This document shows, one piece after another, positions 38,887-61,801 of a stretch of DNA of 64,000 nt. The stretch comes from Polytrichum commune. Its lineage: Eukaryota; Streptophyta; Polytrichopsida; Polytrichales; Polytrichaceae. The DNA is taken from positions 21,266,001-21,330,000 of the forward strand of contig OX485804.1 in the NCBI GenBank assembly GCA_950295325.1, given 5' to 3'. Position numbers and translations under genes: made by a program. The notes under the pieces are model-generated. The model saw only the letters and a list, made by a program, of their open reading frames with translations. It had not been told where the DNA came from and did no database searches. How positions within the stretch are numbered: the stretch's first letter is position 1; every line of letters begins with the position of its first letter.

Positions 38887-38908
38887 CCCACGGGTGTTCA
38901 CCTGTGGG
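38887..38908. repeat. Hairpin repeat copy (TT centre)
   Basis: Right arm CACCTGTGGG has one change. The flanks GT and AC extend the dyad to 26 bp. Confidence 0.9.
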
Positions 38909-40388
38909 ACCAATTGCATTCAAATAACACTATATATGATACCTTGAGCTTGGCTTAGGGGGGGATCCCCAGCATGTGGAGGGTCGTCATGAGAACTCCG
39001 TGGGATGACAATCCGTTCTGCCGCAACCAACACCTGTTGCAAAGACACTTTTAGAAATCTTGACGACTTTGCTTTCAAGATGAACACAATATTGAATTGG
39101 GAAGGAAGTATGTAGTACCATTTCGGACGATGCCGGTTGACCCTCAGCATACCGGTCGACATGAGGGCTTGAGGACTCCGCAACTGCAACATTGACTTCC
39201 TTCCTTGGAGACTCTGGCACTCCACTAATGTCAATGATCTCCAACGTCGAGTCCACAACACTGCCGGCTTGAGCGGCCGAGGACCCCGCGAATTGACCTC
39301 GTTCTTCACGATGTTTCGGAGCTTCGAACGCTGTCCATCTCTTTCTCATTTTCTTTAATGCAGCGGCATGAAGAATATGTTTCACCTTCACTGCTGCACA
39401 AAACGCTGGTGTGGAGAGATAAGCGAACATCTTGTGATAGTTGTACGACTTGTACAAATGCGCAAGATTCAATCGCACGTTCTCGGGCACATCTACCAAG
39501 TATTTGTCCACAAACGGGGCAAAATGCACCTTGTCCTTCCCCTCTGATTCCTTGCCCATGTCAGGTCTCTCAGCAAACATCGGGTGAGAGTCATCAACAA
39601 AGTTGAGTTTCACTCTGTTGTACCCGGGCTTTCCATAATCTTCATCCTCGGAATCATCTGTCATGTAGTCAGCAAACGTCCCCCGAACCCGATGTGGAAC
39701 TCGATCTCTGACCTTCACCCTCACGTCTAGTTCTACGCATCTCTCGGGCACATCGTCATCATTATCCAAGCATATGACTTCGGTTCGAATAACCTCCTCT
39801 GCTTCATTGGATGGTGCCGCTACAGTAGGCTCTTCTGCAACCACAACATCAGGGGAACCACGGTTTGATCGCCCATGGCCTAGCACCTCGAGAACGGCAG
39901 CGGCAACGTCCTCCACAGGTGAGCTGACGTTTAAATCTGTGCTTGTCCCTTCAACATGCACAGCTTCAGACATGATTGCATCCCGCGGAACATCCTCCAC
40001 ATCCGCTACTTGGCCAGATTCAACCTCGCGACAAAGACCAGATTGCTCCGTTGCCTCCGAAGACCGCAAGTTGGCACCAACTCTAGGGGGACGTAGAGAT
40101 GACCTTCCCCTTCGAGGAGCTCTCATTTTCTTCCTTGCAGTTGGTTTCGCTCCAGACCTTGCAGGAGGATTAGCTGACTGCAGACGCTCATCCTCCTCAG
40201 ATTCTTCCATAGGTTGAACATCTAGTTGTTCTTGACTTCGTCTAGATGCCTCAAATGGTACAAACCCGCGGCCGGGTGTAGATGGGATCCCAGACGAGAA
40301 AGATGCCACAGTGTCATGGACACTGTGCACGGCTTATGGTCCTTCAACTTCCTCTTGCCGCTCTTCCTCACCCTCACCCTCCCCCTCC

Positions 40389-40410
40389 CCCACGGGTGAA
40401 CACCCGTGGG
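40389..40410. repeat. Hairpin repeat copy inside the acidic-tract region
   Basis: Perfect arms with AA centre. Unspliced, it reads through as coding (PHGCSPVG) on the minus strand. A possible 93-nt intron (40323-40415) would remove it together with a TAA. Confidence 0.95.
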
Positions 40411-41059
40411 GAAACTCCTCCGGGGACATGGCTTCCGCAGACGCCGCCGCCATGGCCGATGCCTTGAAATTGAAGGCCTCCTCCTCCGCCTCTGCCATGG
40501 CCTCCGCCAGTACATCGTCCATGGCCACCTCCTCGTCCTCCTCGTCCTCCTCCTCTTCGTCTTCGTCGGCCTTTTCTTCCTCCTCTGGAGACTCCCCTAG
40601 AACAACAACTGGGTCATCTTCCTCCTCCACGTCTTCCTCCTCCTCCTCTTCCTCATCTACCTCCTCTTCATGTGTGTCATTCCCACGCTTTCTTCGAATC
40701 TCGCGCTCAATGATGGAATCCACATCGATACGCCCTTCTTCCTCTTCCATATCCACGGCAGCGACATTTCCCTCTTCATTCCACCTTTGTAGGCTCCAGT
40801 CAACTGCGGAAACCATTTTCGTCTTCGCCACCTCTAGCATCTCTACCGGCACAATATTCACCACCTTCATACCCAAGGCCTGCAAAAACCAAGGAATGAG
40901 AAAAAGACTTCTCAGTCAAATTAGTCTACATCCAAAAGCGAAAAGAGAATCAATAAACCAATAGTCCCAACTTGTTGATTGTCAACCAACTAATTGTCAG
41001 GAAAGCTATCGAGCAGGTGGCTAGCAACCAGGTGGATATAAATCACGTGGATGTCTAGG

Positions 41060-41081
41060 CCCACGGGTGTTCACCTGTGGG
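41060..41081. repeat. Hairpin repeat copy in the 307-nt intron
   Basis: TT centre, one arm change (CACCTGTGGG). GG and CC flanks extend it to 26 bp. An outer CAACCAGGT / AACCTGGTT pair at about 41028 and 41088 encloses it. It lies wholly inside the intron 40880-41186. Confidence 0.95.
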
Positions 41082-42521
41082 CCTCCCAACCTGGTTCATG
41101 GCTAGGTTATCCAATGCACCATCCAAACCAGGAATAGTACTCTGAAATTCAAGAACCACTTAGGGGAAAAGATGCTCATTACTTACATGAGCCACTATGT
41201 GCGCCTTATTGCCTCCACAAATATTGAGGAAAAAAGACCCCTCAAGACATGAAGGCTTGATGATATCTATGTAGGTCTGCATCCTCAACTCCCCCTTGAA
41301 TAAAGACTTGACCTCCTCATTGGAATACGCCATTTTCACTGAATAACGTTTATATCGTCCCGGGTCATGGACGTCCAACATCTTCCGGCCTCCACAGAGC
41401 CGCACAGCCACCTCCGAACTTGACTCGCCCCTATTGTTAAAAATGCAAGTTGTAACCCGAAGAGCATTTGATTTGAAGAAGCAATCGCGAGATGCAATTT
41501 TCTCCTCTTTAGTGCCATGGTATAATGCGTCACAAAATCTGATGTTGCTCGGCAGGTGCGCCTTCAGTACATTGTGAATGAAATGCCGATCCGGATATTC
41601 CGAAATCACGGTCCACAATTGGGGGGAGTTTAAAAGGCCTGGAAAATCACGACGAAGACCTTGCAGAGTGGAATCCATACACTCCTTCACACGCCCCCCA
41701 GTGCCTATTCCCGCCTGGACTCCGGGGAGAAACCTTGTGTCCATGTACGCGTGCAGGACTGGTGCAAGCACTGTCCCACCACTGAAGTTGTAGTTGTTGT
41801 CAATAGACAACACGACATGCTCAGGTGTAACCTCGGTGTTATGTGTACCTAATATGTTCTTCACTCATTCTCTAAACCGGTCCGGAATAGGTACTCTCTT
41901 CCTTGTGGGGTTCATAGTGCCAAGAAGGTACTCCGCTCCAAGTCGTTCTCGCTGGAGTTTACCAAACTTATGTGCATACTTCCATACTTTCCAACAATCA
42001 CGATCAATAGTCTCTTTCTGATCGACATGAACAATGTACAATGGAGTCGGGTCTAGACACTGTGTCATCGCGATATAAGTTTCATTCTTCTTTTTCCTAT
42101 TCATCGCCCAATCGCGCACAGTCTTCAAGGTATGTCGAGGGTGCTCCTCTCCATCTCTGGTGGTGAGGATTTGATTCGCTGCCATGTCGAGCTCCATCTC
42201 TGTCAAGCCCCGAAATTGTTTCAGGTCGTTCTTGACCACCTTCTTCGACTTAAACCCCTTTATCTCTTTTATAAGAGCTCCGGTCTTCGGGTCTACATAG
42301 TCACCACTCTCGTAATCCTTGAATATCCGCTTCCACTTCCTCCATATGTCATCGCTCAATACAGGCAAGACGTGCTCCATGATCAGGTTGGTTTCCTTCT
42401 CCACGCGGAACGTCCACATGACGCACGTAATGAATGCATGTATCAAACACCGGCAATGTATCAATCTCTATAAAAAAAAACCTTCATGTATTTCTATCAA
42501 TCACCAACAACATGATAGTCT

Positions 42522-42543
42522 CCCACGGGTGAACACCCGTGGG
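42522..42543. repeat. Hairpin repeat copy in the 82-nt intron
   Basis: Perfect arms, AA centre, CT and AG flanks. It fills a quarter of the intron 42468-42549 and starts six bases from the donor GTGACT on the gene strand. Confidence 0.95.
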
Positions 42544-44202
42544 AGTCACAGAAATGAGAAATTCAAAAGTCACAGGTTTGAAATATATCTTCCACTTCTT
42601 AAAAGCTTCCGTGTTGTTGGCCTTCTCGCGTACAGTTCGGTCAGGTCTTCCTTGCCTAATCCAAGTCTTCCTAGCGTGCTGAATGCACTCCGTAAATGAC
42701 GGAAAGTGCTTCCTGTATTCACTATCCAGGTTCAGAACGCCAGAGAGGTGGAACAGAGGGTCGTCATCACCTTCAGGGGCCCAGACCACATTACAAGGCC
42801 ATTTCGAGAAAAACCTCTTCACCTCATTTGTGCTGCTGGGATCATTCACATACTCCAGACATGCTGCTAACGTGTGCTGTCTATTTACCACGTGGAACGA
42901 TTTGTCCTTCACCTCCTCAAAACTGAATGGTTTAGTTTGCCTATCCGAAGGAACGATTGTCAAGAAGTTGGGATGAATCTTCGGAATGAAGGCATAGTTG
43001 AATAACCATGTCTTGATCTCCTTAAAATGCGCCTCGGATATAGGTCGGCAATTATACCCTGCATCTCCCCGCTCTATATTGTTAATATTGACATATCCAT
43101 TCACGCCTTCACCGAATATCCACACCCTTTGGTACTTGTTCTTGAACAACTCCATATCCATCAACCTGTCTCCAACCGATTTGTCTGGAGGCCCATGCAT
43201 TGATCACTTGGGAATCTTCTCGAGTTCAAGAAATGGACTATCCTCGGATGTTTTCTTCTTGCCTCTCTTGGAGACAACATCCTGGCCGGAAGTTTCAAGG
43301 ACAAGCAGTGGTTGTCCTTCATCGGGTCTCGTCTTCTTCCTAGACGAGGTGGCACGGACATCAGCAGGATCCTTCCTCTTGCCATCGCGGATTTCCTTCT
43401 TCTTCAAAGATGCTTCTAACCTCGCCGCCTTTGCCTCCTCAACTATAACCTTCACTCGTGCTAGAGCAGATTTGTAGTCCTGCTCGATCATTACTGATCT
43501 CTCCTCCACGGACTTCGTGTGCACATTGGTCTCGCAATATACTATACAATAGGTGAGGAAATCACCGTTCAATAAGCGGATGTTCTCTCCCTCATTGTTG
43601 AGCTCCTCATTCACATCCGCATATGAGAAAGTCTCCACGAGTGCTGCAACCTTGAAGTCCTTCTTCCGTTCAGACGACTTGCACATTATCAATACCCGGC
43701 TCCCATCCGCTTGAATGTCCAATACATGTTTTACCTTCATGTACTTTCTCCATGTGGAATTGGGCCCAGTCCTCGTGTAAAGCGAGAGCACCGTTGTCTC
43801 TCCGAAACCACTATACTGCATGAACCATTGCAAATCTGGGCCAAAAACTTCAACATCGTGATTCACCCGTCTGCCCACACCTCCTGATACTGCAGAAGAC
43901 AATGCACGTGTTAGTACTCAGCATAGCCCAATATTATCACGGATTCTATAACTCAGATAACATTGACGTGCACATAGGTATTGTGGTTATACCTTTACGG
44001 GCTGTTTGCTTTGTTCTTGCCATCTCAATTCAAATGAGAGAACACTTCGACACCTCTATGTACCTGAATGAAACACCAACTGTCTATCACATGTTTATGT
44101 CTAAAACCTTCAAATGTTTACAAAGACACACCAAATATGTCTACATAAAAAATCCAAAAGACATTTATCAAACAAAATCTCCCACCCAGGTGAGTGCAAA
44201 GG

Positions 44203-44358
44203 CTCACGGGTGAACACCCGTGGGCACTCCTAACCAGGTGAGTGCAAAGGCCCACGGGTGAACACCCGTGGGCACTCCTAACCAGGTGAGTGCAAAGGCC
44301 CACGGGTGAACACCCGTGGGCACTTTCAACCAGATGAGGGGAGAGGCCCACGGGAGGG
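44203..44358. repeat. Hairpin array 1: four copies at 48-bp period
   Basis: Copies at 44203 (CTCACGGGTG variant), 44251, 44299 and a truncated one at 44347. The spacers are near identical: CACTCCTAACCAG then GTGAGTGCAAAGG. All have the AA centre. The array lies in intron 1 of the minus-strand gene. Confidence 0.97.
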
Positions 44359-44854
44359 CTGATTTTTCACAAAGTTTTAGCTCGTCCACGTCCAAAAACC
44401 TTGAATTGAAAGGCAAAAAAAATCTCAACCCGTCCCGAAACTCGTTGCACTTGGAAACAATAGGATCTTGACAAATTATGCCTTCAATGTTCGTCAGTTT
44501 TTTGTCTTTTTCTACCGATTCTGAGCTTTTCAGTCCACCCCATTCTAAATTGTGTGGTTGAAAAATTAATGTATGCAGGTGAATCAAGCACTTCAAGATT
44601 GATATTTTGATTGGGTTTTACTGGGTTGATTGCATTATGCTTATATTCACATGTCATATATGACATAATGTAACAGATATTTAGACCATCTTTCTAGGAA
44701 AATGTATCAAAAGAATTTTCATTTTTAGAACCCGTCCACAGTGATATCAAGCACGTCCAAAAACCGGTTCATTTTCTACGAACACGTCCACTGACCTTTT
44801 GCTTTATGAACATGTCCCTAGACATGTTAGGGACCTTGTGAAGAATCACCACTG

Positions 44855-45113
44855 CCCACGGGTGTTCACCCGTGGGACTCTCCACCTGGTGAGTGCAAAT
44901 GCCCACGGGTGAACACCCGTGGGCACATTCAACCAGATGGGGGAGAGGCCCACGGGTGAACACCCGTGGGCACATTCAACCAGATGGGGGGAGAGGCCCA
45001 CGGGTGTTCACCCGTGGGCCTCTCCACCTGGTGAGTGCAAAAGCCCACAGGTGAACACCCGTGGGCACATTCAACCATATGAGGGGAGAGTCCCACGGGT
45101 GTTCACCCGTGGG
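44855..45113. repeat. Hairpin array 2: six copies at 47-48-bp period, spacers in both orientations
   Basis: Copies start at 44855 (TT), 44902 (AA), 44949 (AA), 44997 (TT), 45044 (AA, one change) and 45092 (TT). Spacers are of two kinds, CACATTCAACCAGATG-GGGAGAGG and CCTCTCCACCTGGTGAGTGC, which are approximate reverse complements. The copy at 44997 has flanks GGAGAGGC and GCCTCTCC, making a 36-bp perfect-arm hairpin. It lies in intron 1 of the minus-strand gene. Confidence 0.97.
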
Positions 45114-45211
45114 CACTTCAAATATCCACTTCCAGATAACCGCTTTCACACTAACAGAAAAAACTGGGATTTATGTAATGGACACTCACCAGGGTTCTTT
45201 GGTCGGACCAT

Positions 45212-46000
45212 GTCAAGATTCTTTCAACACGAATGTGGTTTCCTGCACAAAACAAAACACAAGAGCATTTGTTTCAAACTATGCCTACATGTGCAATACA
45301 TTCATACTCTCAAACATCTCAACAGGTAAATTCTGGTCTCACATTTTTCTTGCATTCTGGTCTCACATTTTTATGAACATAACCTCTTGTCATTCATCTT
45401 GCATTATGATTTGAGCATTCTTCTCACATTTCAATCAACTCTTCACACCCAAGCATCACACAATTCACATGCAAATCTCTAGTATTTATGGGTTTGAAAT
45501 TCTTCAAGCAATTCAAACCCTAATGCACCAGAAATTTAGTATCTTATGCAACAAGTGTCAAGACATTCCAAACATTCATCATTTAGCTCTGATTCACCAC
45601 TGCCAGACAACTTATAGCCACAAGCATTACAATGCAAGCAAGAGGAAGAATGAAATTGAAAGAAAAAGCAAAAGAGTGAAAGAGAGTACAAAACATTGAA
45701 AGAGTTCAGAAACTTACAAGCTTGTGGGTTCTCAAATCTTCATGATTGGAACTTCCCTCCACTTGCTTCAGGGTCGCCTTCCTCTTCTCCACATCTCACC
45801 ACTACCACATGCTGGATTGAGCAAGAAACAACTATGCTCACCAAGAAACTATCACATATTCCAAGAAAATGCACACTGAATCTATTCCAGGGTTTTCTTG
45901 AGAAGAGAATCAAGACAAGGAGTACAATAATTGAATGAAGAGAAGAGAATGAAGAGAAGCAAAGCAAAGCAAAGCAAGTTCAGAATTGTGGGAGAAGAGT
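45212..46000 (-). promoter_or_regulatory. Probable 5' UTR and leader intron of the long minus-strand gene
   Basis: An acceptor (TTTTGTGCAG) ends at 45243 on the minus strand, 31 nt before the ATG, and a strong donor GTAAGT lies at 45717-45712, suggesting a 475-nt leader intron. Upstream, 45730-46000 is a pyrimidine-rich minus-strand leader (repeated CTTTG and CTTCTCTTCATT). A convincing TATA box was not identified. Confidence 0.45.
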
Positions 46001-46254
46001 TTTGCAACAACATTCCAGAAATGTGGAGAGTGGTGAAGGAAAGAGAGAAAGAATTGGGAGAGGAGAATGAGAGAGAGGGTGCGACATGTTGCCATAATGA
46101 CGAGCGGGTGGAAGTCTAATGACACATAATGCCTCATTAGTACGAAGGGACATGATGGAGAAAATCTCGGGACGCGAAGAGATATGCGATTTGGCGGCTA
46201 AAGTACGTTTTGAGGAGGGATGGGCGGTATGATGGTATTAGGAGGTAGCGATTA

Positions 46255-46780
46255 AAAATTATTGGTACTTTGTAAGGTTCGCCCTATTGGTATGATAATT
46301 ATTAGTACTTAGTAAGATATCTAAGTATTAGTGAGATAATTATTAATACTTAGTAAGATATCTAAGTATTAGTAAGACAATTATTAGTAAGATAACTCAT
46401 ATTAGTAATTATTAGTAATTATCAGTACTTAGTAAGATAACTCATATTAGTAAGTTCATTATTAGTACTTATTAAGATAACTCATATTAGTATGATTGAT
46501 ATTATTTTTATTGTTAGTAAATTGTCATATTCACTCTATTTTTAATATTAGTAAAAATAATTTATAGCTATTAATAGTAATTACCAGTAATAGTAACTAA
46601 TAATAACTAATAGTGACTAGTAGTGAATAATAGTGAATGCTAGTGCTTCATAGGTCATTATAGTCATTAATAATGTTTAATAGTGATTGATAATTATGAC
46701 TTACTAATGGGTGACTAGTAGTGATTAATAGTAATAATAATAATCACTTTCAATCGATAAATGGTAATAGTATTGATAAT
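46255..46780. repeat. Degenerate ATTAGTA tandem repeat
   Basis: Imperfect units of ATTATTAGTACTTAGTAAGA and shorter TTAGTAAT words, grading into AATAGTGA words towards 46700. Confidence 0.85.
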
Positions 46781-47909
46781 GCTTAAAATAGATTCATATT
46801 ATAACATAGATTCCATACTTTAACATTCTACTCTGTAACATAGCTTCCTATTATAACATACCAAAGTCAATTGCACATTCTCATAATATGCGTGTAAGAT
46901 GCTCAATCGCGCTTGACATCAAGCATAGCTATGATTTCCAATTCCTTATTGATGAAGTCATGAGCATCCATAATAGGCCCACTTTCACCATAGCCCATGA
47001 ACTCAAGTTCAATTGTTCTCTTGTTTTCTCTTGGACTATGAACCATTAGAGTTCCAAGAATTCAAAATTTTAAATATAACATATATTTATCATCCTTATC
47101 ATCCTTATCATCATCGCCTTATACCATATATATTGAGAGGATGACAAAGGAGGTGGCCAACGAGTGGGCCACATCAAGCACCACATGAATCTCGAGCAAT
47201 ATTAAGATTGCATCTCCATAACCATAACTCATGTTTGCTCGAATGTTGTGTGGCAAAGTATTGCAATCATCTACTAGAGGTTTTGGCTAAGTTAGGGCCG
47301 GTTTACACCATGGACCATGAAGTCGGAGCATGGAAGATGGCATTTTTTTTCCATGGTCCAATTTCTTAAAAAAACAATATCCAAAGCCTTTGGGCCCCTC
47401 ACTATGTGTAAATTGAATGTGGACCAAAAAACGAATGTGCTGATTTTCTAAATATATGCCCAAAAGAGCACTTTTGAAAAGAAAAAGAAAAAGAAATCAA
47501 AATTGACAATTCTCTTGTCTTCTCTTGTCTTCATCTTCTCTCCCCCCCAAAAAAAACCATTAAAAAAGTTATTATAACAACATTTCTTTGCCATGGGCCA
47601 TTGCCTTTTTCTATGGAGAGCACCTCTTTTGCCTCTCCCACCGCAAAACCCGTTGGACCATGTCAATGGATAATTTAGGCCTTAAAATATGTCCTTTGGG
47701 GACCTCGAACTCCATGATCACCTTGACATTTTTTTTTCCTTGTTGTAAACCGAAGTGGTCCCGGGACGAGTTCAACAACCAATCACAAGCTTTACAGGGC
47801 CTTGAATGACTTCATGGTCCATGGTGTAAACAACCCCTAAATTAGGTGCAGTTTGACAGAGGTTTCCAAACCTCTCCCTTGTTTGTAGTTTATCTTCGGT
47901 TTACAATAA
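46781..47909. other. Gene-free stretch
   Basis: No recognisable gene. A dyad pairs 47310-47350 (CCATGGACCATG-type) with 47805-47825 (TCATGGTCCATGGTGTAAAC), so 47300-47830 is probably another small TIR element. Confidence 0.4.
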
Positions 47910-48224
47910 CTACACTAAAAAGGATATTTAGTGTTCAGTACATTGAATATGAACGCATACACTAAACATCAGTAACCCTATGAAAATAAATAACATTAAA
48001 TATAAACAAAAACACTAAATATCAACTATGATAATATGTGGAAGTTACAAGTTTGAATTTAGTGTTAGTAAGGCTATGAAAAAAAAGGAAATAACAATGA
48101 TAAAAGGAGAAATCCAACATATCTTCTAACACTAATTGTCAAAAAATTGAAAATTAGTGTTGAGCAAAGTAGGGTGGTATCAACATTAAATATAATCAAA
48201 CCCTAAATATCCTACTTAGTGTAG
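47910..48224. mobile_element. MITE with CTACACTAAAA terminal inverted repeats
   Basis: The left end CTACACTAAAAAGGATATTT is mirrored by CCTAAATATCCTACTTAGTG then TAG at the right. Same family as 23420-23636. No coding capacity. Confidence 0.65.
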
Positions 48225-51200
48225 TGCCCTGATAGTGTACACAAGGTGTTGGTTGTCTTCCTTGATCGTGTGAATGTTAGAGCAAGTGGAGGGGCAATAT
48301 ATGTTTCTACATGGATCCCCGGTCCTAGACGCAAATTAGTGTGTAGTAATGCTTGTATCAATAAAGCCAGACTTCATGCTGACCTGTCTTCTTTATGAAA
48401 TTTCTTTTCTATTTTTTATTGGCTTTGTCTGCAAGACAAAGACTATGCATCAACTTCTTCGTTTCAAGAGCAAATTTCCTAACCACTTTGCGTTCACATT
48501 TGGACATTACTTATTCTTGTTATTTTTGGCCCACTTTATTCAATGTGGATGTTAATTATAGTTTATATATATATAAAAACTATAATTGCTCCCTAAAAGG
48601 CATTGAAAGAAAACTAGTTAATAAGTATAGTTATTTCGGTAGTTGTTGATTATTTATTTTGAAAATTTCGGGTGATAAATGAATAGCTTCAATCCTTGAC
48701 CCGCATTTGAGAAGGAGGTGCACAAAATTCAAGAAATGTTTGGTATAGTAAGTAACCATGGATTGGCACGAGCAAAATGGACATCTACAATTGTAGTCTT
48801 TCATAGTAAAGGACAGAGCCTCACGGTTCTACCGTTTTCTTGTTTTTTTTGCAAATAGATGAGCTAAAATATATTACAAATTGATAGAACTCCCGATATA
48901 CACCACAACCCTTCCTTCATTCTAATTCACACTTTGGAAAGCCAATGCAATCTTTGGTTGTGAAAGCCATTCCAAAATAATAAGTTAGTTGAGGTTGCGA
49001 AGACTTTGTCCTATACAATAATCTCAACTTGAGCAACACTCCAAAATGGGCACGAGTTCGATGACACACCACCGAGTGGTCCACATACAAGGTCTCTCAC
49101 TAACTTGACTTATTTGTAAGCTTGTTGATGTAACCAAGGGTTGACCATTGCTCACATCTTGCTTTGGTTTCTGCACTAGTATGGGCAAAAGAGGCACAAT
49201 TTGTCATCTTCCAAGGCAAAAATGTTGGGGCAATTAATGCGGTGGAACCTCTACAAGAATAAGTGGCCATTGCACCAAGAATCGCATAGTAATGATCATT
49301 TAAGAGATGTAATTAGGCAAACTTGCCGTGCCCATTATGGTGTTTATTAGTGTCATGTGCACTATTTGCAAAGGAACTACATCAAAATGTTCACAATCTT
49401 AGAGATGACATGTTCGTTGATTGCCAGAATGACATTAGTTGTCAATGTAAGTGATAATTTATGTATGAAGGAAAAACTTTTGATCTTTTTGACCTTCAGG
49501 TGCATTCACGGTTGGGGTACTACTTTTGGGTGTCTAACGGTTAAAGGACTAATTAAAATTAGATAACTTTACATAGTTGGTGTGCTTAGATTTGTATTGT
49601 GGAGCATATTTTGAATCATACCTACATTTAATATTCCATATTGAGTGCACCGACAAAGTTAATTTACAAGGAATAGGGTTATCAAAGATATCATTTTGAT
49701 TCCTTAACGGACATCCATGGGTGTTGTCAAAATTGTTGACCTTAGGATCAATGAATGACAAGGACAACAAAAATTAATTGAAATGATCCCAATTTTTTTT
49801 CCTCACAATTATCATTCGATTGTGTACCAATAGAACTAAAAATGTATTGCATACCAATTGTATAGCTTTACATATGACACCAAACATGGCCAACAATACA
49901 CAACAACATGGCTACATGAAAAAGGAACGTTTAGTATTAGAATTGAACATATATATATATATATATATATGGATGGATACATGAAACTTACACCAAGGTA
50001 CTAGGATGGAAAACAGGTAATAATTCACCTCCGATGTTCACTTCAATAATGAAATTGTTATTGATGTGGCCCAAACAAGTCATATGACCTCTTTACAAGT
50101 CCTTTGACCTATCTACTCATTTCATAAAGGATTTATCTATTATTGGTGATTATTTAATAATAAGTAATATCTTTCTTGACAAGTCCTATGACCTATCTAC
50201 TTATCTATTTAAATTTTATTGATCAAATAATAGTAAATCATAATAAACGCCGAGATCCAATGCAACATAGTCCTTAATTTCTTTGTCCCAAAAGTAGTAC
50301 CCCAATCGTGAATAGCCCCTCCTAACAAATAAAACCATCTTTAATAATTCTCTTAAGGTAAAAAAAAGACCTCCAATTACTTCATATATTTCAGATTCAC
50401 TCTGAGACAATATTATTCTTTCATAAAAATAGAAGATTGAGCCAATTGATCCACGTTGGATGAATTTACCTAGATGCCGTGTAGCTCAGGTTGTACTCTC
50501 AAACTTATCTAGCATCGTCATGGAGGCTCTTGACATATTCTTCCCCAATTCGATATACAATAGAATAGTGTGAGCGTTTCCAACACATTTGTGAGACCCA
50601 TCTTGTTTCCATAAAAGTATCAATATTGACATGGACCATGACAATGGAGACATGTTCACTCTCTAATAATGTTGAGGGATCCCGAGGCTTAGTATAACCA
50701 CTCCAAAGTAGTGACAATTGAAACCCCTACCATTCTTATCCGTTGGATTGATCCTTTAAGCATGTAGATTGCTTCAAAGTGTCACAATGGAGTAATCTAT
50801 TGTTGTTATTCAAGTGATACATTTATCATCTCATGAACCATGAGTTGATCATTCCTCCATCACTTTTGAGTAGTTGATTTGTTAGTATTATTATGGAATG
50901 TCATACATGAGGGGCCCATTGGTCATTGGCCATTGGTGGGGGCAAATCAAGATGGTTGTTTGCTATCACTACCTATATCTCTTCATATGTGAACGCTACA
51001 TGAGGTATAACTTAGAGCCATGTCATGATGATGGATGAGTTCATCCATTGACCTTCTCATGTTAGCAACTTGTGATGCAACATTGTCATGGATGATTGCT
51101 ATATTGTCTACTGTGATATAGTGATAACGTACATGTTCATATTAAACGGTTTTGTTTATTCCCACTACATTCCCACTACATTCCCAGTGTCATGTGCCGA

Positions 51201-51359
51201 CACTTACGGTGTTGTTGTTAATCTGCAATATAACATAGCATACCCTTCAAAATAGGGGTTTCCATTACTGTGGGTTTTTCATCTGCATATTTGGATGAAA
51301 ATCCAATGTAAGGCAAGGAAAGTACAATAATATTACAGTGGGCCACACTAAAAATGAAC
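48225..51359. other. Gene-free stretch
   Basis: Short frames only. A TTGGGGTACTACTTTTGGG word at about 49510 recurs inverted near 50290-50310, marking an inverted repeat pair. A TA run lies at 49950-49970. Confidence 0.4.
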
Positions 51360-51855
51360 AACAGGACTTAGAATAATATAAGGTATCAAAAATGGCAATG
51401 GACATCTTTAAAGTACTATAGGGTATGGAAGAATATGTAATTTGGAATTATATGAAATGCAAGGCTTTTTCTATTAACCCAAGGTTGAAAATGCTAATGA
51501 AATAAATAACCCTAAACCCTAAACCCTAAACCCATTAGTGTGGTAGTCCACTTAGTGTTGGACCTTCTTAGTTGCTCGCCATCTATTTGTGTCCCACTCA
51601 TATGCAATTAGGAGTCTAGTAACAACTAATTCTCTTTTATCGCGCATCCATGTGCAAACAACCACTATTTTATATGGGGTTATTACCTTCAATTTTTTTC
51701 TTCACATGCTATGATTATGTAGTTTTCTTAGTTGGGTTAGTAGAAAAGGGCCTTGCATTAATTATAAATCCAAATAATCGATTTGTTCCATACCCTATAG
51801 TACTTTAATGATGCCCAGTGTCATTTTTGACACCCCATATTATATTTGCTTTAAC
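51360..51855. mobile_element. Two facing copies of MITE family A around a telomere-like motif
   Basis: 51360-51500 contains AAAGTACTATAGGGTATGGA. 51735-51850 contains its inverse (TCCATACCCTATAGTACTTT with small changes). Between them are three CCCTAAA units near 51511-51531. The ends are worn and no target duplication is clear. Confidence 0.65.
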
Positions 51856-54530
51856 ATGGGCGGACGTTAAATACCCCCTCACGAACTTTTGGAGGTATCT
51901 AATCTGGGTTGGGGCAATCTTGTAGCGAAAATTTCTAAACCCAACCAAAAATTGCAGTCTTGAAGGCCGCTTGACTACAAATCCCATATTGAGTGCACTA
52001 AAATCCGCTTGACTTACCATAAATAACTTATATTTGTCATTCTAATGATGGATTAGTGCAAGTGTTTATAAGAGAATAAGGTATAAATAAATGATATGTT
52101 ATTTGGAATTAGACTCGTGGGACAACGTTATGGATGGGGTATATATTACTCAGAAAATCATAAGTTTCTGACTATGGCCTATCTGAATTATTTAATAATT
52201 TATCCTCATCACATATTGTATTATCTTTCAAATCACATAGTGTATAACCGTTACTTTAAAATAAATATAATTATATGATACTAATACTAATACTAATACT
52301 ATTATGCAAATACTAACAATAACAATACTAAGACTAATATTGAATTGAGTTTTTTAGTTCACCAATTTATCATAAGGTGATATATATTATTGTGCCATAT
52401 TACAAATGTTTGAACAATCACACATGTGCAAAATAAATGAATTATGAACAAAAAGATGTCTATGACAACACTTCATAATTATATATTGCACACATTGATA
52501 TCTTACGATATTTATCAAAATAACCATGTGAAATTCAAAGCCACATCATGGCCTTGGAAACATCTCATGGGAGGTTAGAAAATAGGCTTAGAGCATCCAA
52601 GGCCACATCATTGCCCCTTGCCAACTAATTAATATTTATAAAATAACTATGAGGGAGAAAGTAGGTCTTACATGCCAACTCGGAGGTATTTCACTAAAGT
52701 AAGCTCCATCCGAGCTTCTTGATGGACTCATCCGATTTTTGTTACCGGATGACTTTACTTGAGTGCCACGAATCCCCGGCCCTTTCAAGTGGGCTTGTAC
52801 GGTTAAGGTATTTGTTGACTTTCATATTTACGGCCTCGAATGTCCTTTCCAAAGTGCACATCTAAGGGTACTCATGTAAGTATAACCATGCTATCACATA
52901 GAGCCTTATTATAACCTAACATAGTCAATCGCACACTCTCAAAATATGCTTGTCATTGTAGGGTCGATAGTGCACATGGATTGACAACCTAAGTACCAAA
53001 GTACTAAATTTGAGCAACAACAAATCCCACATGGATGCAACATCTATGGCTACACGGTCCAAAATTGAGCTTTTATATTCTCCTTAAAGGTGATTTCAAA
53101 AATACTTTATGGCAAGTCCACAAGTCATACCCATGGATTGGAGCATGACATTATGGAAAGGTTACTTAAAGGTTACTCAAAGGTATTTGACCCCGATTTT
53201 AAAGAGTAGTTTAAGTGCATACATGCACATGAAGGTTTTACAGGGGCATGGGCATATGGTTTGCATGGGTGATTGTGGTTGGGTTCATGCAAGATATGAA
53301 CCCAAAATGATTCATACGGACTAGTGTAATGGGTCAGGATGGCACATGCCCAAACTAATAAGGTGTGTGGGGCTCATTGATAGTTGTAGTTTGAGGAGGG
53401 AAACTTGACTAGCTCTATATTCAAGCACATGGAAATTGATTTTCATTTGAGCGGAGAAACCTTGGTTTTTATATACATTGTTAGTGTGAACCATAATTTG
53501 TTGTATTTACATTGAGAGTTCATGATGCCATGTTCTTACTATTCAAACCTTGCCCAAAGTTTTCTTAATTTATGGAGATTTTGTTTTTCATTTTTCTAGC
53601 ATCCCATGATGCAAAATCAATCAGTCTAGTCAATCAACAACTAAAGTGCGTCAGTACAAGGATGGCCACGTTTCAACTTGTGTTTTGGGCAACGAGCCGA
53701 ATCTGCTACCCCCCCCCCCCCCAACCACCATTGCCACTCCACATGGGAGTGCCCAGTCCAAAAGATGCTTGAAGATACCGGCAAAACCTTCACCAACGTC
53801 AGAGAACTCTATTTTGTTTCACCAGAACGATTGGTACATGAAAGTGTGCCCTAACTTGGGCCAGACTAATTTGGGGTCAATTCAACTAAATAGGGTTTCC
53901 AATAAACTTTGAAAAATAACCTCCTTACTACATACTAGTTTAAAGTTTCATTGTTGGATGAATGAGAGTAATATGCTCGTATGCGATAATCCCATTTCGT
54001 TGGCCAAAAAAACATTGATATGTATATAGGGCCTCACATTAGAAGCCCAAGCCCTTGAGGATGTAAATGCTATCACAAATTCCCCATGCGTAGGCAAAGC
54101 CTTCCTTTTGGAAGCCGGGCTATGTTGGGTGCGACTATCTATTTGGGGCATCCAAGTTTGGGAAGAGGGGGTTGACATTGCAACCATTGTATCTCATTGC
54201 ATCTATTAAGGGGTTGTATGTGTTTGTTTTGTATTGTTGTTTCAATGTATGTGTTGTGGCATAAGGTTTAGGTTAAGGAGTATATGTCCTCTAGCTGCAT
54301 TGGGAGTTCCAATCACACACGTGGTGTCCAAACTAAGTCTACCCAAACATGTGCATTATCCAAGGACATGTCAAATGATTGGAGTCACGTTTTTCTACAG
54401 CCTTGTCGATCGGTCAGCCTTAAGCCATCATTTTGACATGGGATCTCAAAACGGTCATCCAAACGGGATAAGTGGTGGGCCCATAAGTATATAGCGTAAA
54501 ACCTAGGAAGTGCAGCTAGAAATGTAGTGG
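51856..54530. other. Gene-free stretch
   Basis: A TAATAC(T) run is at about 52278-52305 and a C run at 53710-53722. I see no supportable gene; frames of 60-80 codons lack any family signature. Confidence 0.4.
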
Positions 54531-54800
54531 ACACATACCGGGGGGGGGGGTTGTGATGTATTGGAGTAGAAATATATGTGCAAAAAATTGAGAGGGTATA
54601 TGGGGACGTAAAATGAACAAAATGATTTAGAATAATATAGGGTGTCAAAAATGGCGTTGGACATCTTTAAAGTACTATAGGGTTTGAAATAATAGGTAAC
54701 TTGGAAATATAAGTAATGCAAGGCCCTATCCTACTAACCCGGTGCTGAAAATGCTAAGGAAATAAATAACCTTAAACCCTAAACCCTAAACCCTAAACCG
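54531..54800. mobile_element. MITE family A, partial copy with telomere-like motif
   Basis: Starts with a G run (54541-54550) like the intact copy at 25190, shares AAAGTACTATAGGGTTTGAA, and ends in three CCCTAAA units (about 54776-54798), as does the copy at 51360. Confidence 0.6.
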
Positions 54801-54889
54801 GTTTATAAATGGATCAACATCTCTAGCGTAGTGCTATAAATTTGATGATTTTCCCCAGTGTAAATAGGGCATTGACGCCCGAGTTGGCC

Positions 54890-54891
<2 letters not shown>

Positions 54892-54926
<35 letters not shown>

Positions 54927-54955
54927 CATACATACATATAGACACACACACACAT
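54892..54955. repeat. TA / CATA / CA microsatellite
   Basis: Alternating TA, then ACATACATA, then CACACA. Confidence 0.9.
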
Positions 54956-55397
54956 ATTTGTGGTCGCGGAACTCTATGGTATGTTGCTACATGTCCAACA
55001 TCATGATTGATAAGAATGACAAGTGATGCTAAAAGATGAAAAATGGGTTGTGCAAATCAAAGAGGTGCCATGAAAATGGACTCTCTCTCCCTCTCTCTCT
55101 CTCTCTTTGGTGGCATTTTGCATGTTTCAGTCAATACATGCAAATTCATTTTGTAACATGTGGCGCTTTCAAGTCAAAGATGGATAAACCCTAGGCTTGA
55201 GCTATTGGGAGAAGGGTCGAATTGTCAAATTATGTATAATGCCATAGTAGGAGTCTAGGTAGGTATTGAGTCATCACATCCTATATCATACTATTAATGG
55301 GGGTGGGCGAGGCAAGGTTGAGGCAAGTTGACAAGGTTGGGCATGGTCACGAATCATTGGTGCTAAGGTTGAGGTCACATGAGAAAGTTATTAAATG

Positions 55398-55600
55398 GGC
55401 ATCTTGGATAACTTAACTTGATAAAACCACCACAAGTTATTGTGAACCGTTGATGATGAGGTTGAGGTTGTTTGGGAAGAGTGTTCAACAGTCATCTTGG
55501 ATAACTTAACTTGAAAAAACTGTTGTGAACCATCGGGGTTTAGGTTGAGTTTGAGGTTAAGGTTGAGATTGTTTGGGAAAGGTGGTCCACTTAACTTCAT
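55398..55600. repeat. ~93-bp tandem duplication
   Basis: The segment beginning ATCTTGGATAACTTAACTTG occurs at about 55400 and 55493, each followed by a TTGTGAACC and a GGTTGAGG-TTGTTTGGGA block. A weaker third copy is near 55638. Confidence 0.7.
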
Positions 55601-56464
55601 AATTATAAATTCAAGGTTTTATGTTTTGATGTAATAATTCTCAATGGTCATCTTCGATAACTTAAGTACATGATTGTGACCTTAGGGTTTTGATGTTTAA
55701 TGCTTCAAAGTCGTGAACAAAACCAAGAGGTTTATAAAGGAAAGTGACACATACTCCTTTGGTAAGATGAATCCACAAAAGTGCAAACTCAAATTCATGA
55801 TTTAACAAAGCAATTTAGCGATAGGTTCTTCCAATTTCATTGGAAATATGAACCTGGTTCATGGTCCAAGTTCATTATTTAAACAACCAATTTCAGTACA
55901 TGTTGTGAACAATTTCATGATTTGGTACCCATATTCAAAACTTCACAAAATCAATTTTAGGAAATGCATAACTCTATTTCACAAAGAACATTACATCATG
56001 TATAGGATTATCCTAGTAAACAAATTGCTCCCTATTCCGCACAACTATACACTACACTCCAAAAACATTATGCGCTTTGCTCATGCTACCAACACTCTTC
56101 CCATAATCAAACCCCCAACTACACTACGTACACTCTCAAACCCATGAGATTACGCACTCCAACTATGTTGGGTATGAGTTGTTTGCTTTGATGTACAATA
56201 ATCAAAGACCAAAGGAAAAATGACATTGCTTGCTTCTAACTCCAAGGTAGTGTAATGAAGACCAAAGAAAATTTGACATCAAGGCTAGAGGCTTCCAAGT
56301 AAATACAAAACAATGAGAAGGCAAAGAATGCGAAATGAGGCGGCGAGAATTTGAGAAATAAAAAAACCATAAAGTGTGAACTTGATATGGAAGATTCACA
56401 AAGTTGCTAAACATAAATGTCCACAATGGGGTGGAGCGAGGCAAGTTGACAAGGCTAGGAAAGT
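55601..56464. other. Gene-free stretch
   Basis: No supportable gene. A 99-codon frame at 55848-56147 has no family signature. Confidence 0.4.
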
Positions 56465-56472
56465 ATAAGTAT

Positions 56473-56827
56473 CTTGGGGGGGGGGGGGCGGGGCAGTGTG
56501 TTAAAAAGTTAAGGATATAGGTGTGAACAACCACTATTTTATAGGGGGGGTATTACTTTCAATTCTATTATTTTTCTCACAATGATGCTATCATTATGTA
56601 AATTTCTACTTTGGGTTAATAGAAAAATGGCTTGCATTACTTATAATTCCAAATTACCTATTATTCCATACCCTATAGTACTTTAAAGATGTCAAGTGTC
56701 ATGGTTGATACCCTATATTACTCTTAACTCCATTTATAATTTTTAGCCCCCATGTTTTTAAAATACCCTATCATTTGTTCGCACGTATATTGCTACTCCA
56801 ACCAATGACTACCCCCCCCCCCCCGAG
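56473..56827 (-). mobile_element. hAT-type MITE (family A), inverted relative to 25190-25530
   Basis: A 355-bp element with ends CTTGGGGG and CCCCCGAG, long G and C runs at the two ends, and nearly the same interior as 25190-25530 read inversely. Flanks ATAAGTAT (56465-56472) and AGAAGTAT (56828-56835) match at 7 of 8 bases, fitting a worn 8-bp target duplication. Confidence 0.8.
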
Positions 56828-56835
56828 AGAAGTAT

Positions 56836-57849
56836 ATGAAACTTTTCCGAAGTTGCAACACAATGGGCCACAATGGGCCACAATGCTAGTTGCTCTAAAA
56901 GGAGCAGGCTAGTGTTGAGCTTCAAACCTCGAATTTGGGAGCCCTTATTCCCAAATTAGACTGCAAACATGAAAGTTAATAGTAGCTTTGACCGGGTTAT
57001 CCTCGCACCTTGCCCACAAAATAGGCATCCTATTCACAATTATAAAATATAAAAGAACTATAACTCTGGTGAGAGAATCCCATGTGGTTGTTAACTCTTG
57101 CGGATGAAACAATACCTAACCTTCATACTATTCATTTTGCAAGGGTGCCCATCATAAGTGGTGGATAATTCCTACATTCCCCACACTATGGGTGATCACC
57201 TAAGTGATGAGTATGTATGGTAGGCACCAAGACATTGTATTGGCATTTGTTTGTGCTATCCGTTTGAGTTATGTTGGGCCACCTTTTGCATGGGATAAAG
57301 TGCTTCTTCAATTACATGTGATGACCTTGACTCCCCCTTGACTACAAAATACAACCTCAAGATTGTGATAATGTGGGACCGCAAGTGACATGCTACACTT
57401 TGTTTTTAACAACTACATAGTCACCATTAAATTTAAGAGTTGGCAACTCCATGACCCTATTTGTGTTAGAGGTTCTATTCACTTGCTTCTCCCTTGCTTG
57501 TCATTTGTCACCATCACAATGTCGCACACAATGGACCTGTTATGTGTGCACATGTCCTTATGTAATTTTGGCATGAGTATGCTTGGTAGTGGTATGAGGT
57601 GTATGCAAAGGTTACACAATGATCATTGGTACCGCAAAGACTCTCCTTCGCCTTGTAACAAATTTTCACTCCATGTACATACGATGTAGAACCCCACTAC
57701 CGAAGGTCATCATTATTCAATATGAGGAAGGTTAGAACGTGATTAGCTAATAGCGATAGGAATTGGAGGGAATGACGTCTATGTACTTACGAATTTGGAG
57801 GGAATGCCTTGTACTTCCTCATGTGAAGTTGATGGCCATGCTCACGACC
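56836..57849. other. Spacer upstream of the DUF7869 gene
   Basis: No gene recognised. The promoter of the downstream gene lies at its right end. Confidence 0.4.
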
Positions 57850-57858
57850 TATATAAAG
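57850..57858 (+). promoter_or_regulatory. TATA box of the DUF7869-type gene
   Basis: TATATAAAG, 70 nt upstream of the ATG at 57928 (context ACCATGG), with a pyrimidine-rich likely start region (TTTCTTTCTCC) about 30 nt downstream. Confidence 0.6.
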
Positions 57859-57927
57859 GCCACCATTTGGAGGGTCATTTCTTTCTCCTCATTTGAGTCC
57901 ACCCCCCTTCACCCTTGAGGAGCAACC

Positions 57928-60900
57928 ATGGAGAGCGTGCCTCACATGAGTGAAGAGGTTGGTTTTATAACCCCAATGTGCATCCACTTTCCCACGGGTG
58001 CACCCGTGACAACACTCTGGCCGTACGCCTCCTGTACGGCCAGTCTGCCACGGGTGTTCACCCGTGGGAGACGCTGGCACCCGGTTTGGGGCCCCCACGG
58101 GTGTTCACCCGTGGGAGCTTATGGTTTTTATTTCGGTTATCCTAGCATATGTCAGAATAGAAGTTATCCATATGCTCATGTGTGTGACAAACTTTATAGT
58201 AGTAGATGTCAGCATGGTAGCCTCCCACGGGTGAACACCTGTGGGAGAATCCGGCACCAGCATGGAAGCCCCCACGGGTGTTCACTCGTGGCAGTTCATG
58301 ATTTGTATTTTAGTTCTCCCTACATATGTGTGGTTATAAGATAGGCATGTATCACGTGTGTGACATACTCAATAGTTGTATATGCAATTCTGCTTATTTG
58401 TAAATTTCCTGCTGAGTATGTGAAATATGTTGTCAATGGGTAATTGGTACATATTATTACGAGTTGGGAGTTTCGTGATGCATTATGATAAATGATGTCG
58501 ATGATATTCGTTAAACTGGAATGTTGACACTATCCTGAATGGCAACTATTTCGCTAGCACTTGGGCTAGCAGATGTGACACCTACATGCATAGTAATAAT
58601 TGTACACAAGTAAGTGTTAGGGGTGATAGTTTTGGTGTTTGGGCTTTGTGGAAACTGGTAATAAGGGTCATTCTCCCAATGGGGATATGATAAGTAACAC
58701 ATACTTCACTTGAGTTGTGTGAAGTGAGGTGTAGAGCGTACCCCTATATGAATGTAAATATTCTGCTGAGATTTCAATGTTGTCCCCCACGGGTGAACAC
58801 CCGTGAGCTTCTGGTCAATGTGTGTTGACTTACTTTGATATCGATGTTCAGATTCCACATTACATTGGACTGTCGAGGACGGACTTGAAGGGGAAGGCCG
58901 TTGTGCTCTTTGATGATGAGGGCCATGCTTTGTGTGATGGATTGATTTGCAACACAAATCCGTTGGATTGTGTTGACAATAGCATCCTAGGGGCTGAGGA
59001 TGTTGGAGTTATTATCTTGAACCCAACTGACAATGTTATTTCGCGGGATTGGGAGAATACGCTGCACCGATGGCCACTTTCACTCACCAAATTTGAAGGA
59101 CATACATTAGCAGAAATATTGTTGGTCCATCATAATGCGACCCGCGAAGTTCAAAGTCATCGGCGCTTGCTTGGAAAACGCCAATACAACACTGTGAGGA
59201 TGTGTGCACCTCGGCCACCTGGGAAGAAAATTTGGGGAGCCACTGAGGAGCATGCGCGGATGTTATCAGCGGTGGATTGTTGTTCCGAGCATTGTTGCCA
59301 GGTATTCCCAAGGCCTTTGTTGATGAGTATTCGGGAACACTACTTCGCATTGCCATTCAATGCTCGGAAGCTCATAGCCCTGTCGGTGTTCCAATCGATC
59401 CAGAAACATGAGCACAACGGACGCGAAATGGTGCAGTTGGAAGGGAGAACAATATGCACTCGAGCATGGATGAACATCTATATGATATCAAGGGCACAAT
59501 ATAATAGGAACAAGGCTGAAAGCTTGATGGGGGTTAGATCTCGAGATCATGGAAATACAGGAACTAGAAAACCACGGACGAATGCAGTGCAAGCACGAGC
59601 CACCCTTGGAGTATTGGTTGAGGGTAGGGCGGACGCCATGCCCCATATGACTCGGACTCTTCCAAGTGGTGAGAAGATAGGGACGGAGATGCTCCCTGTG
59701 GGAACAACGTGGTGCAACCTATTGCAGGAAGTGAACAACTTGGACGGAGACCTAGGGTACACGCCTATCTCTACGTCCACCTTCAGCCGCCTACATCAAC
59801 AACATTTCAAGCAGTATGTTATAAAGAGCCCCGGCGACAACTTCTCGCGTTGTGGAACTTGTGCAGCATTCAAGGATTTGTTGCGAATACACACAAAGAA
59901 CACAGCTGGTCACTTGGCCATCTCGAATGCTAGCCTTCGTCATCTAACATTGCAGGAGGCTCATAGAAACAGTTACTATAAAGATAGGATTTTGTCAAAG
60001 TATGCTCCCAATGAGGTGCTTTGTATAATCCATGACAAAATGGATTATGGGAAAACGGCTCTTCCCGTTTTCGCGCACAAAAACAAACGTGTTGACAAAT
60101 ACGAGCGATTCCCCATATCCATTGCGGGGATGATTGCACATGGTCACTCAGATGTGAATTATGCGCATTATGTCCTTGATATGTACCCATCCGATGCCAA
60201 CTTCACTATCACCTCGATGATGAAGTTGCTTTGTCAACTTGAGGTAGAACCTGTTTGCTCTAGTAGACACATTCCGATTTCGTCCATAGGTGATCCTTTA
60301 CACGACGCATTGGTGGTTGGTGTGGAGAAGTGTTCAGGAGTACTTCCCTTGCCACCGCCCGCAAGTATTCCTCCTACAGGTTTGCCACCCCTCCTCCTTG
60401 TTCAAATGGACAATTGTGCGAAGGACAACAAATCAAAATACAACATGTTGTTTTGGTCAGCTTTGACTGCAAAGGGAATTTTTCGGGAAGTCAGGGTGTC
60501 TTTCCTTATTGTTGGACATACGCATGAGGATGTGGATGCAATGTTTGGGAGGTTTGGACAAAGGCTGAAGATTGAGGATTGCCATACACTCCCAGACCTC
60601 ATGGCATCGTTCATGGCTGCTGGGGAACCCACTATTGTCCCGTCCTTAATCCACGAGGTTGCAGATTTCAAGGAATGGGTGAAGGGATACTACAATGAGT
60701 ATGGTCAAGATCGACTTATTGGGCATTCCAAGGCGCACCAATTCCGTTTTTATGTAGATCCTCAAGGAGTGCCATTGATGCAGTACAAAGTGTATTGTAC
60801 AGATCCAAGTTGGGTGCCTGATGGAGGAATTGCTCTTTGGAAGGTGGACCCTATCACAAAGAAGACCATGGTCCCAACAGGTTAGTGGGTCCCTTGTTTG

Positions 60901-61801
60901 TATTGCTTTGGAAGTGCACTAGAAAATACATGGTGTGAAGTATGTGGCCCACGGGTGATCACCCGTGGGCAGTTAGTCCGTGGTATTGCTCCGAGCTCAT
61001 TGTATGTTTGTTTTTGTAGGGTGCCCCCGTCCCGTTCCAAAAAGGGAGATGAAAGATTCCGTGAACATAAAGCTTGGGGTGCAAGGTTTTATTAAGTATT
61101 GGAAGGATACGGCAGATCAAGATAGTTCGGGTCAATATATGGAGTCCATTGCACCAACAATTTTATATTGGGAGAATGTGCTTGCGGCTATGGATCAACC
61201 TTTACTCCCAACTCCATCTGAACTTAGCGAGCCATTCTGGCCAGCTACACGGTACTCCATTGCACCAACCCTCCATGTGGATAATGTGCATCTACTTGAG
61301 GAAAACATCATTGATTATGCTTACGTGGGGCCAGCTAGTTCTCGACCTGTTGAGACCTTCCGTCCCGGCGCACATATACAGGTTGGCCATTATGTGTTAC
61401 TACGTCCTAGTGAGGATTGTCCTAATCCAGTGTGGATGGGACGAGTGATTTCTGAGCCGAATTTGGCACATATCGGTCCTAATCCTCGTTCCATTGAGAT
61501 TGTCTATTATGTACCGGTCCTTGGCCAAAGGAACAAGAAGACCTTAGATGAACGTTATGAGGAATGGGACACGGCAAAATCTTTTCGATGGACGAGGCTC
61601 AAGGACTATGCACCACAACATCAATCCCTAGATTGTGTTGTGGCATCATGGGCAAGACAAAGGAATGCGTCCGATGACAATGTTCTCATCCCAGCTCGGC
61701 AAATTCTTTTCGCAAAGGATAATTTAGATCGATGCACTAGAGGTGAGAAAATGACTGATGGAGATACTTTCGAGGATGGGGTACCAACAGAAGACCTCTA
61801 G
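57928..61801 (+). CDS. DUF7869-type (DDE/RNase H-like) transposon protein, three exons, open
   Basis: Exon 1 57928-57957 (MESVPHMSEE), intron 57958-58851 (GTTGGT, TTCAG), exon 2 58852-60880, intron 60881-61019 (GTTAGT, TTGTAG), exon 3 61020-61801. Phases agree and the total is 946 codons plus TAG. Without the first splice the frame would begin at 58822. The middle part holds a Cys-rich segment (CCSEHCCQVFPRPL, then ARKLIALSVF). The C-terminal core carries IIHDKMDYGKTALPVF (~403), VQMDNCAKDNKSKYN (~528) and FLIVGHTHEDVDAMFGRF (~562). These acidic sites in this order are the signature of DUF7869, a family found in plant and animal transposon-like genes and probably an RNase H-fold nuclease. Exon 3 encodes a tail with VGHYVLLRPSED and WMGRVISEP, reminiscent of a BAH or chromo-like reader. 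No stop or frameshift is seen, so the copy may be recent or active. Hairpin repeats fill both introns. Confidence 0.8.
57991..58292. repeat. Hairpin repeat cluster in intron 1 of the DUF7869 gene
   Basis: Copies at 57991-58008 (centre deleted), 58047-58068, 58094-58115, 58224-58245 (one arm change) and 58271-58292 (two changes). Between the first two lies another dyad, GGCCGTACG / CGTACGGCC. The copies at 58094 and 58271 are each followed by a related ~92-bp segment (58116-58208 and 58293-58384, both with GTGTGTGACA), so a 177-bp unit has been tandemly duplicated. Confidence 0.93.
58786..58807. repeat. Hairpin repeat copy near the 3' end of intron 1
   Basis: AA centre; the last positions read CCGTGAG. 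It lies 44 nt upstream of the acceptor at 58850-58851. Confidence 0.9.
60948..60969. repeat. Hairpin repeat copy in the 139-nt intron (AT centre)
   Basis: The centre is AT, making the 22 bp a perfect palindrome; G and C flanks extend it to 24. It lies in the middle of intron 60881-61019. Confidence 0.97.

Follow-up and report, generated by a model that had tools for sequence, protein, structure and literature searches.

Family-specific palindromes in the introns of a large two-gene DNA transposon of Polytrichum commune: candidate sites for an element-encoded protein

Why should copies of one short hairpin be scattered through the introns of two genes that lie on opposite strands? The question is raised by a 64,000-nt stretch of Polytrichum commune DNA (assembly GCA_950295325.1, contig OX485804.1, positions 21,266,001 to 21,330,000 of the forward strand; hereafter the window, numbered from its first base). 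An earlier note on this DNA had seen hairpins in the introns of two transposon-type genes, taken to be unrelated, and proposed either that the hairpin takes part in splicing or expression or that intron and hairpin arrived together, as for introner-like elements. The observation was mostly right and the explanation is different. Both genes belong to one large DNA transposon, and the hairpin is read here, with a probability of roughly 60%, as a fast-changing, dyad-symmetric DNA site to which, by analogy with other plant transposons, a protein encoded by the element itself would bind.

Palindromes and the transposon that carries them

The palindrome, CACGGGTG-WW-CACCCGTG, has 21 copies in the window at up to three mismatches (shuffled sequences: mean 0.05, largest 1, n = 100), all confined to 38.8-45.1 kb and 58.0-62.1 kb, and a 22nd copy, at 57993-58008, is without the 2-nt centre. 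Copies measure 18-32 nt, lie in both orientations, stand several to an intron and include perfect palindromes with no loop. The centre, among 101 related copies (some of them duplicates), is AA in 48, TT in 41, AT in 11 and AC in one. No RNA family (at the gathering threshold) and no tRNA was found in the window; in viral contigs the palindrome was absent and no relatives were confirmed. The genome searched (407.8 Mb, 64 contigs), whose TTTAGGG-type repeats point to a green plant, holds 934 palindrome sites, about 50 places of which were listed, and none of the reversed control.

Among the places listed, one cluster, on C1, has the spacing of the window in reverse, and the surrounding stretch aligns to the window at 98.1% identity over 37977-56427 and 99.4% over 56423-62293. 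This complete sister copy (C1:33991810-34018601; 26,792 bp) has inverted repeats beginning GGGGATATTAAC, with a perfect 21-bp terminal inverted repeat (TIR), GGGGATATTAACTAAAATGAG, at both ends. Both ends are also present in the C5 copy, again with a perfect 21-bp TIR and with AT on either side. AT follows eight of nine right ends seen (two of them with identical flank), the exception being the C1 right end, and precedes both of the left ends seen; over the right 200 bp, all 40 scored copies (the best 40 of 212 candidates) are 97-100% identical. With terminal inverted repeats and a short target duplication, AT, the element is a TIR DNA transposon, and it is established that both genes are parts of it, reading outwards on opposite strands, and are not unrelated as had been supposed. 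The window copy has its right end intact, at 62293, and is broken off on the left at 37803. The element and its genes are as follows.

37803..62293, two-gene TIR DNA transposon, left-truncated copy, 24.5 kb (alignment to the C1 copy)
62273..62293, minus strand, terminal inverted repeat of the right end, CTCATTTTAGTTAATATCCCC, with AT after it (matched over 21 bp by the left end of the C1 copy)
37985..38523, minus strand, part of the minus gene with a NIF/FCP1-like phosphatase match (Pfam, 6.9e-06)
38943..40879, minus strand, acidic-region exon or exons of the minus gene
41187..42437, minus strand, exon 3 of the minus gene
42589..43889, minus strand, exon 2 of the minus gene
43993..44063, minus strand, exon for MARTKQTARK (the start of histone H3), joined to VSGG of the next exon
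45190..45242, minus strand, predicted upstream exon with a 22-nt MVRPKNP start; splicing to 44063 would yield a short upstream frame
57928..61801, plus strand, plus gene of three exons for a DUF7869 protein (Pfam match, 2.4e-46; open frame)

Exons were predicted from frames and splice-site consensus, partly in this analysis, and the palindromes are placed against that model.

38784..38908, hairpin copies 38786 and 38889, in the minus-gene intron 38942-38524 (a prediction based on splice-site consensus and reading frames)
40389..40410, hairpin copy 40391, in frame within a minus-gene coding exon (EEFPHGCSPVGEGEG)
41060..41081, hairpin copy 41062, within minus intron 41186-40880; C7, a sister copy, lacks this 47-nt unit
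42522..42543, hairpin copy 42524, in minus intron 2
44203..44320, array of three hairpin units, period 48, in minus intron 1
44855..45113, array of six hairpin units, period 47-48, in minus intron 1; sister copies vary in unit number
57993..58008, palindrome without the 2-nt centre, in plus intron 1
58049..58290, four hairpin copies as two pairs, 47-nt spacing, in plus intron 1
58788..58805, hairpin copy, in plus intron 1
60948..60969, hairpin copy with a symmetric AT centre, in plus intron 2; aligns with arm-changed versions in the 677 and 689 families
61833..62210, subterminal set on the right: 62069 with one mismatch, plus weak matches around 61833, 61945 (a half site) and 62193

The three exons of the plus gene (57928-57957, 58852-60880 and 61020-61801) connect in a single open frame, which bears out its introns 57958-58851 and 60881-61019; the tiny first coding exons of the two genes (30 and 22 nt) are phase-consistent, as had been described. 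The minus gene had to be partly redrawn. The first intron given for it, 45189-43890, is indeed loaded with hairpins, and it is not a single intron, since the conserved exon 44063-43993 lies inside. A hairpin lies within minus intron 2 whichever borders are taken, and those drawn earlier, 42549-42468, are probably not the original ones: three other copies have donor 42588 in common, and two of the three have acceptor 42438. A further intron thought probable at 40415-40323 is unneeded, as the 40391 copy is in frame and the C1 sister frame continues there without a stop. Frames in the acidic region suggest a possible extra intron of 86 nt, free of hairpins, near 39118-39034.

By this model 20 of the 22 copies are intronic, one (40391) lies in a coding exon and one (62069) lies beyond the plus gene, near the end of the element. 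Hairpins are therefore mostly, not exclusively, in introns. Neither does every intron hold one, the 103-nt intron 43992-43890 being empty, nor are coding exons free of them, contrary to what the earlier note had stated. Taken as clusters, eight of ten are intronic, a number reached in 0 of 100,000 random placements over the whole element and with P = 0.0006 when placement is restricted to gene spans; the corresponding probabilities of one cluster or fewer in exons are 0.11 (not significant) and 0.0003. The preference for introns is real. Hairpin positions are largely common between copies of the element and array size varies. Outside the genes, complete copies have palindromes at about 240 and 602 from the left end, matching the right-end copy at 62069 in being near an end. 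Weaker matches occur on the left near 428, in C5 and L004, and near 81; the weak ones of the subterminal set in the window have five mismatches, and with that many mismatches matches by chance are frequent.

The DUF7869 protein is probably the transposase, to judge from its Pfam match, fold models being of too low confidence to use; no mention of DUF7869 was found in the literature searched. The ratio of nonsynonymous to synonymous substitution rates (dN/dS) of the plus gene against C5 is 0.32 and 0.62. Against C1, exon 2 has 11 nonsynonymous changes and one synonymous, and exon 3 three and none, so the C1 pair gives no evidence of constraint on this gene. The minus gene is long, acidic in its middle, with a NIF/FCP1-like stretch toward its end. 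Its dN/dS against three sister copies is 0.42-0.48 in exon 2 and 0.35-0.41 in exon 3 (with borders as first drawn, which include a few dozen intron bases) and 0.62-0.85 in the acidic part. Where comparable, the in-frame stops of the window copy are not common to the sister copies; C5 and C7 carry stops of their own. The phosphatase match spans 38565-37983 on the minus strand, in or beside the large minus gene. ParB- or methyltransferase-like folds were considered for the minus gene and found unsupported.

The truncated element is flanked by 220-bp direct repeats (37434-37652 and 62296-62515; 99.1% identical). These were considered as long terminal repeats, a reading ruled out because the right repeat copy continues into a 411-bp TIR element. 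A single 25-kb element running from 37541 to 62813 was likewise rejected on the C1 copy, which has a left TIR and its right end at the equivalent of 62293. As the left direct repeat ends inside the TIR element that is whole in the right copy, the transposon has probably lost its left end, with repair by copied flank and an AT-rich array (37653-37802). The 411-bp element, at 62403-62813, is a miniature inverted-repeat transposable element (MITE) with TIR CACGGGTAGATCACTCC and an 8-bp duplication, AATTTCAA; a 91% copy of it is inserted in the C1 element, where the window site (about 37977-37985) is empty. A nested TIR element with G-run ends occupies 54540-56822 and has relatives at 25186-25527 and 51348-51843, and a remnant of a hAT dimerisation domain lies at 15078-15551 (3e-4, just below the curated cut-off).

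Related families and their own palindromes

Is the palindrome peculiar to the window family? There are at least 150 DUF7869 matches in the genome (the best 150 of 1,491 candidates were scored), and the types compared here, 692 (the window family), 677, 689, 502 and 540, are named for open-frame length, not for position in a tree. A 677-type copy (L039) and a 689-type copy (L040) encode DUF7869 proteins about 87% identical to that of the window. Both have a different palindrome, CACGGGCG-NN-CGCCCGTG, in intron 1, at the same 47-nt spacing as in the window family, with single palindrome versions in intron 2 and on the 3' side. On alignment of intron 2 the core is retained, and the arm change is paired in 677 and one-armed in 689.

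At greater distance the arms differ again. Genes of the 502 type (39-43% identical) have GGTTTGGGTCG-NN-CGACCCAAACC every 78 nt or so before the main exon, and those of the 540 type (38-41%) have TTACGAACG-NN-CGTTCGTAA in the same place. Each type's own palindrome stands upstream in all four 502-type and all four 540-type stretches, against a mean of 0.085 and a maximum of 2 in 200 shuffled sets; the first 37.4 kb of the window hold one palindrome of that kind. Sites of the 502 palindrome number 3,138 in the genome, with none for its reversed control; the 50 or so places that were listed include three clusters situated 2.0-4.8 kb upstream of DUF7869 matches of the 502 type, also among those listed. 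Introns at about residue 434 of the 502- and 540-type genes hold no such palindrome. Plus intron 2, at residue 687, is absent from these two types and bears a hairpin in 692, 677 and 689.

A CG-NN-CG centre is common to the 677, 689, 502 and 540 palindromes (in L040 intron 2, TG stands on one side). The TG-NN-CA centre of the window family could have arisen from it by CpG decay followed by fixation. A different repeat, of about 70 bp, that contains the window-family palindrome was also seen outside the transposon, at 1450-1960 of L001 and near 14123-14604 of the joined L030-L032, and between its units lies a MITE related to that of 62403-62813.

What the palindrome may do

The build of these sites recalls two groups of plant transposons. 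In PMC5735166, the VANC21 protein of Arabidopsis VANDAL elements binds a short motif in intronic, intergenic and terminal DNA, with tandem repeats that change rapidly. The likeness lies in a short repeated motif that occupies introns and terminal non-coding DNA, in tandem arrays that differ from one related family to the next (PMC5735166, PMC10398659), and one mark of a VANC-type system, a family-specific motif arrayed in tandem in the element's non-coding DNA, was found here. The present system differs in its 18-32-nt palindrome, in being a DUF7869 element with AT flanks and in having no recognised VANC protein (in a Pfam search alone, parts of the minus gene match only NIF); binding and any link to methylation are carried over by analogy. 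CACTA elements have family-specific subterminal repeats for TNPA-like proteins, and the resemblance of En/Spm and the 20.5-kb Tgmt* is that of a large element with a repeated, family-specific, pairing-capable motif for which an element-encoded binder has been proposed too (PMC2613891). Here, by contrast, the copies are mostly intronic, the ends read GGGGATATTAAC and the duplication is 2-bp AT as opposed to 3 bp; with GGGG ends and AT flanks the element does not belong to CACTA (En/Spm).

Arms that stay symmetric around two free central bases yet vary between families, evenly spaced arrays and copies near the ends are the trace that a dimeric DNA-binding protein of the element would be expected to leave. 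The palindrome would then be the docking site of a dimeric protein encoded by the element, and the bound protein would mark the element's own non-coding DNA. Binding in introns may serve expression or protection from silencing, and binding near the ends may serve transposition. Most copies would lie in introns because these supply the transcribed part with non-coding DNA, in which an array can lengthen and leave the proteins whole. Of the roles in splicing or expression proposed earlier, the first gives way, for the reason set out below; the best of the remaining readings is a part in the element's expression or mobility.

Several observations weigh against this binding-site reading. The core of the 692-family palindrome diverges as much as its flanks (core v flank 3/176 v 23/1584, 3/176 v 37/1582 and 5/88 v 53/959). 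The 12-kb stretch between the two genes holds no palindrome, one copy sits inside a coding exon, and the C7 copy is without a hairpin in minus intron 3. Several of the listed 502 clusters have no DUF7869 neighbour among the 150 matches scored (the best of 1,491 candidates), and at six remoter DUF7869 loci (23-33% identity) no palindrome was found within 1.5 kb on either side, a distance that may miss some. The same palindrome occurs outside the transposon, in another array, of about 70-bp units. No palindrome-binding protein was identified, parts of the minus gene have no Pfam match apart from NIF, and two structure models are of low confidence (mean predicted local distance difference test, pLDDT, 36.3 and 32.5). 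Finally, paired arm changes suit RNA as well as they suit DNA.

The last point favours a hairpin that acts as RNA in transcripts, whether in their stability, as small RNA, or in processing or splicing. Introns that are transcribed hold most of the copies, arms co-change between families, and one 3' copy of a 677-type gene has a GAAA loop. Such a role predicts that single-arm changes on the sense strand favour G.U over A.C; across four elements they number 10 G.U, 8 A.C and one other, beside 59 perfect copies, so that on this small count G.U is not favoured. Perfect palindromes with no loop and copies outside genes near the ends also fit an RNA role poorly. Comparing homologues, as the earlier note had proposed, turned up introns with the hairpin and the outcome that it had itself named as contrary to its explanation: in C7, intron 41186-40880 keeps the same splice sites while one 47-nt hairpin unit, similar to those of intron 1, is absent. 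A need for the hairpin in the splicing of this intron is therefore not supported, and we regard an RNA role as unlikely.

Intron and hairpin are thus separable, by loss or gain in either direction, which bears equally on their joint arrival. Introner-like elements are repeats associated with introns; in the present case the palindrome is not the intron and supplies no splice sites. A joint origin would suit plus intron 2, which comes with a hairpin in three types and is missing from the two others. It does not suit a minus intron 3 found with and without the 47-nt unit, introns of 103-1127 nt with several copies in some and none in one, or the copies that lie in an exon or close to the ends, and it must be considered highly improbable. 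Could the palindrome instead be a neutral tandem-repeat unit, spread by slippage and gene conversion, tolerated in introns and bound by nothing? The differences in array size among copies and a core with no extra conservation within the family would follow, and tolerance alone would explain the scarcity in exons. Neutrality sits badly with the like build of the palindromes, each having a 2-nt centre, in all five DUF7869 types sampled at 38% identity or more, and with a symmetry that is kept while arms and spacers differ; it seems to us rather unlikely. A site for a host factor, exploited by several transposon families, would account for the palindrome in the separate array of about 70-bp units and for the CG-NN-CG centre in four types. 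Such a factor should impose a uniform site, yet the arms differ among the 692, 502 and 540 types, and this explanation is very unlikely.

An exon with the tail of histone H3

Minus exon 44063-43993 encodes MARTKQTARK, the first residues of histone H3, followed by VSGG where H3 has STGG. The transposon tail peptide, counterpart of H3 1-13, is ARTKQTARKVSGG, and the host H3 gene L051 reads MARTKQTARKSTGG. From splice-site consensus, we infer that this tail is the start of the minus-gene protein. The peptide pattern, in any codons, has 54 sites in the genome and its reverse none; 37 use the transposon codons and 17 others (one read, L051). On the opposite strand and upstream of a DUF7869 match, at 35 kb or less, lie 32 of the 37, and of 52 DUF7869 matches picked as 692-, 677- or 689-like from the best 150, 32 have such a tail exon.

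Conservation of the tail was judged from this search, which finds the exact tail and leaves changed tails invisible, and from six exons read directly, of which those of 677 and 689 were chosen by the search. Two of the four 692-family copies read directly have MARTKQTTRK (A7T). MARTKQTARKV[SP]GG occurs in 692, 677 and 689 genes with synonymous differences: the commonest 692 version differs from the 677 version by five changes in ten codons, all of them synonymous, while strong divergence between the two is seen in the leader and in the intron and exon that follow. Unconstrained drift would hardly have left exact tails in three families, and the tail is therefore likely to be under constraint.

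Histone mimics are proteins with H3-like tails, with ARTKQTARK at the N-terminus. The present case would differ in being encoded by a transposon, and at least three families of that transposon have the tail in this genome. The minus-gene protein might be such a mimic (ARTKQTARK-VSGG, Ser10 to Val) that acts at its own palindromes and captures or decoys host readers and writers of H3K4 and H3K9 over its own genes, an idea that we hold tentatively and consider doubtful. No histone mimicry by transposons was found in the literature searched, including the available part of PMC12085086, which does not prove its absence in print.

If these readings are true, a conserved H3 tail encoded by a transposon would be a direct example, open to test, of a selfish element that mimics a histone. 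There would also be a large set of transposon proteins, spanning several families, whose palindromic targets change, and the coevolution of binder and site could be tested directly within one genome, where one palindrome has 934 sites and another 3,138.

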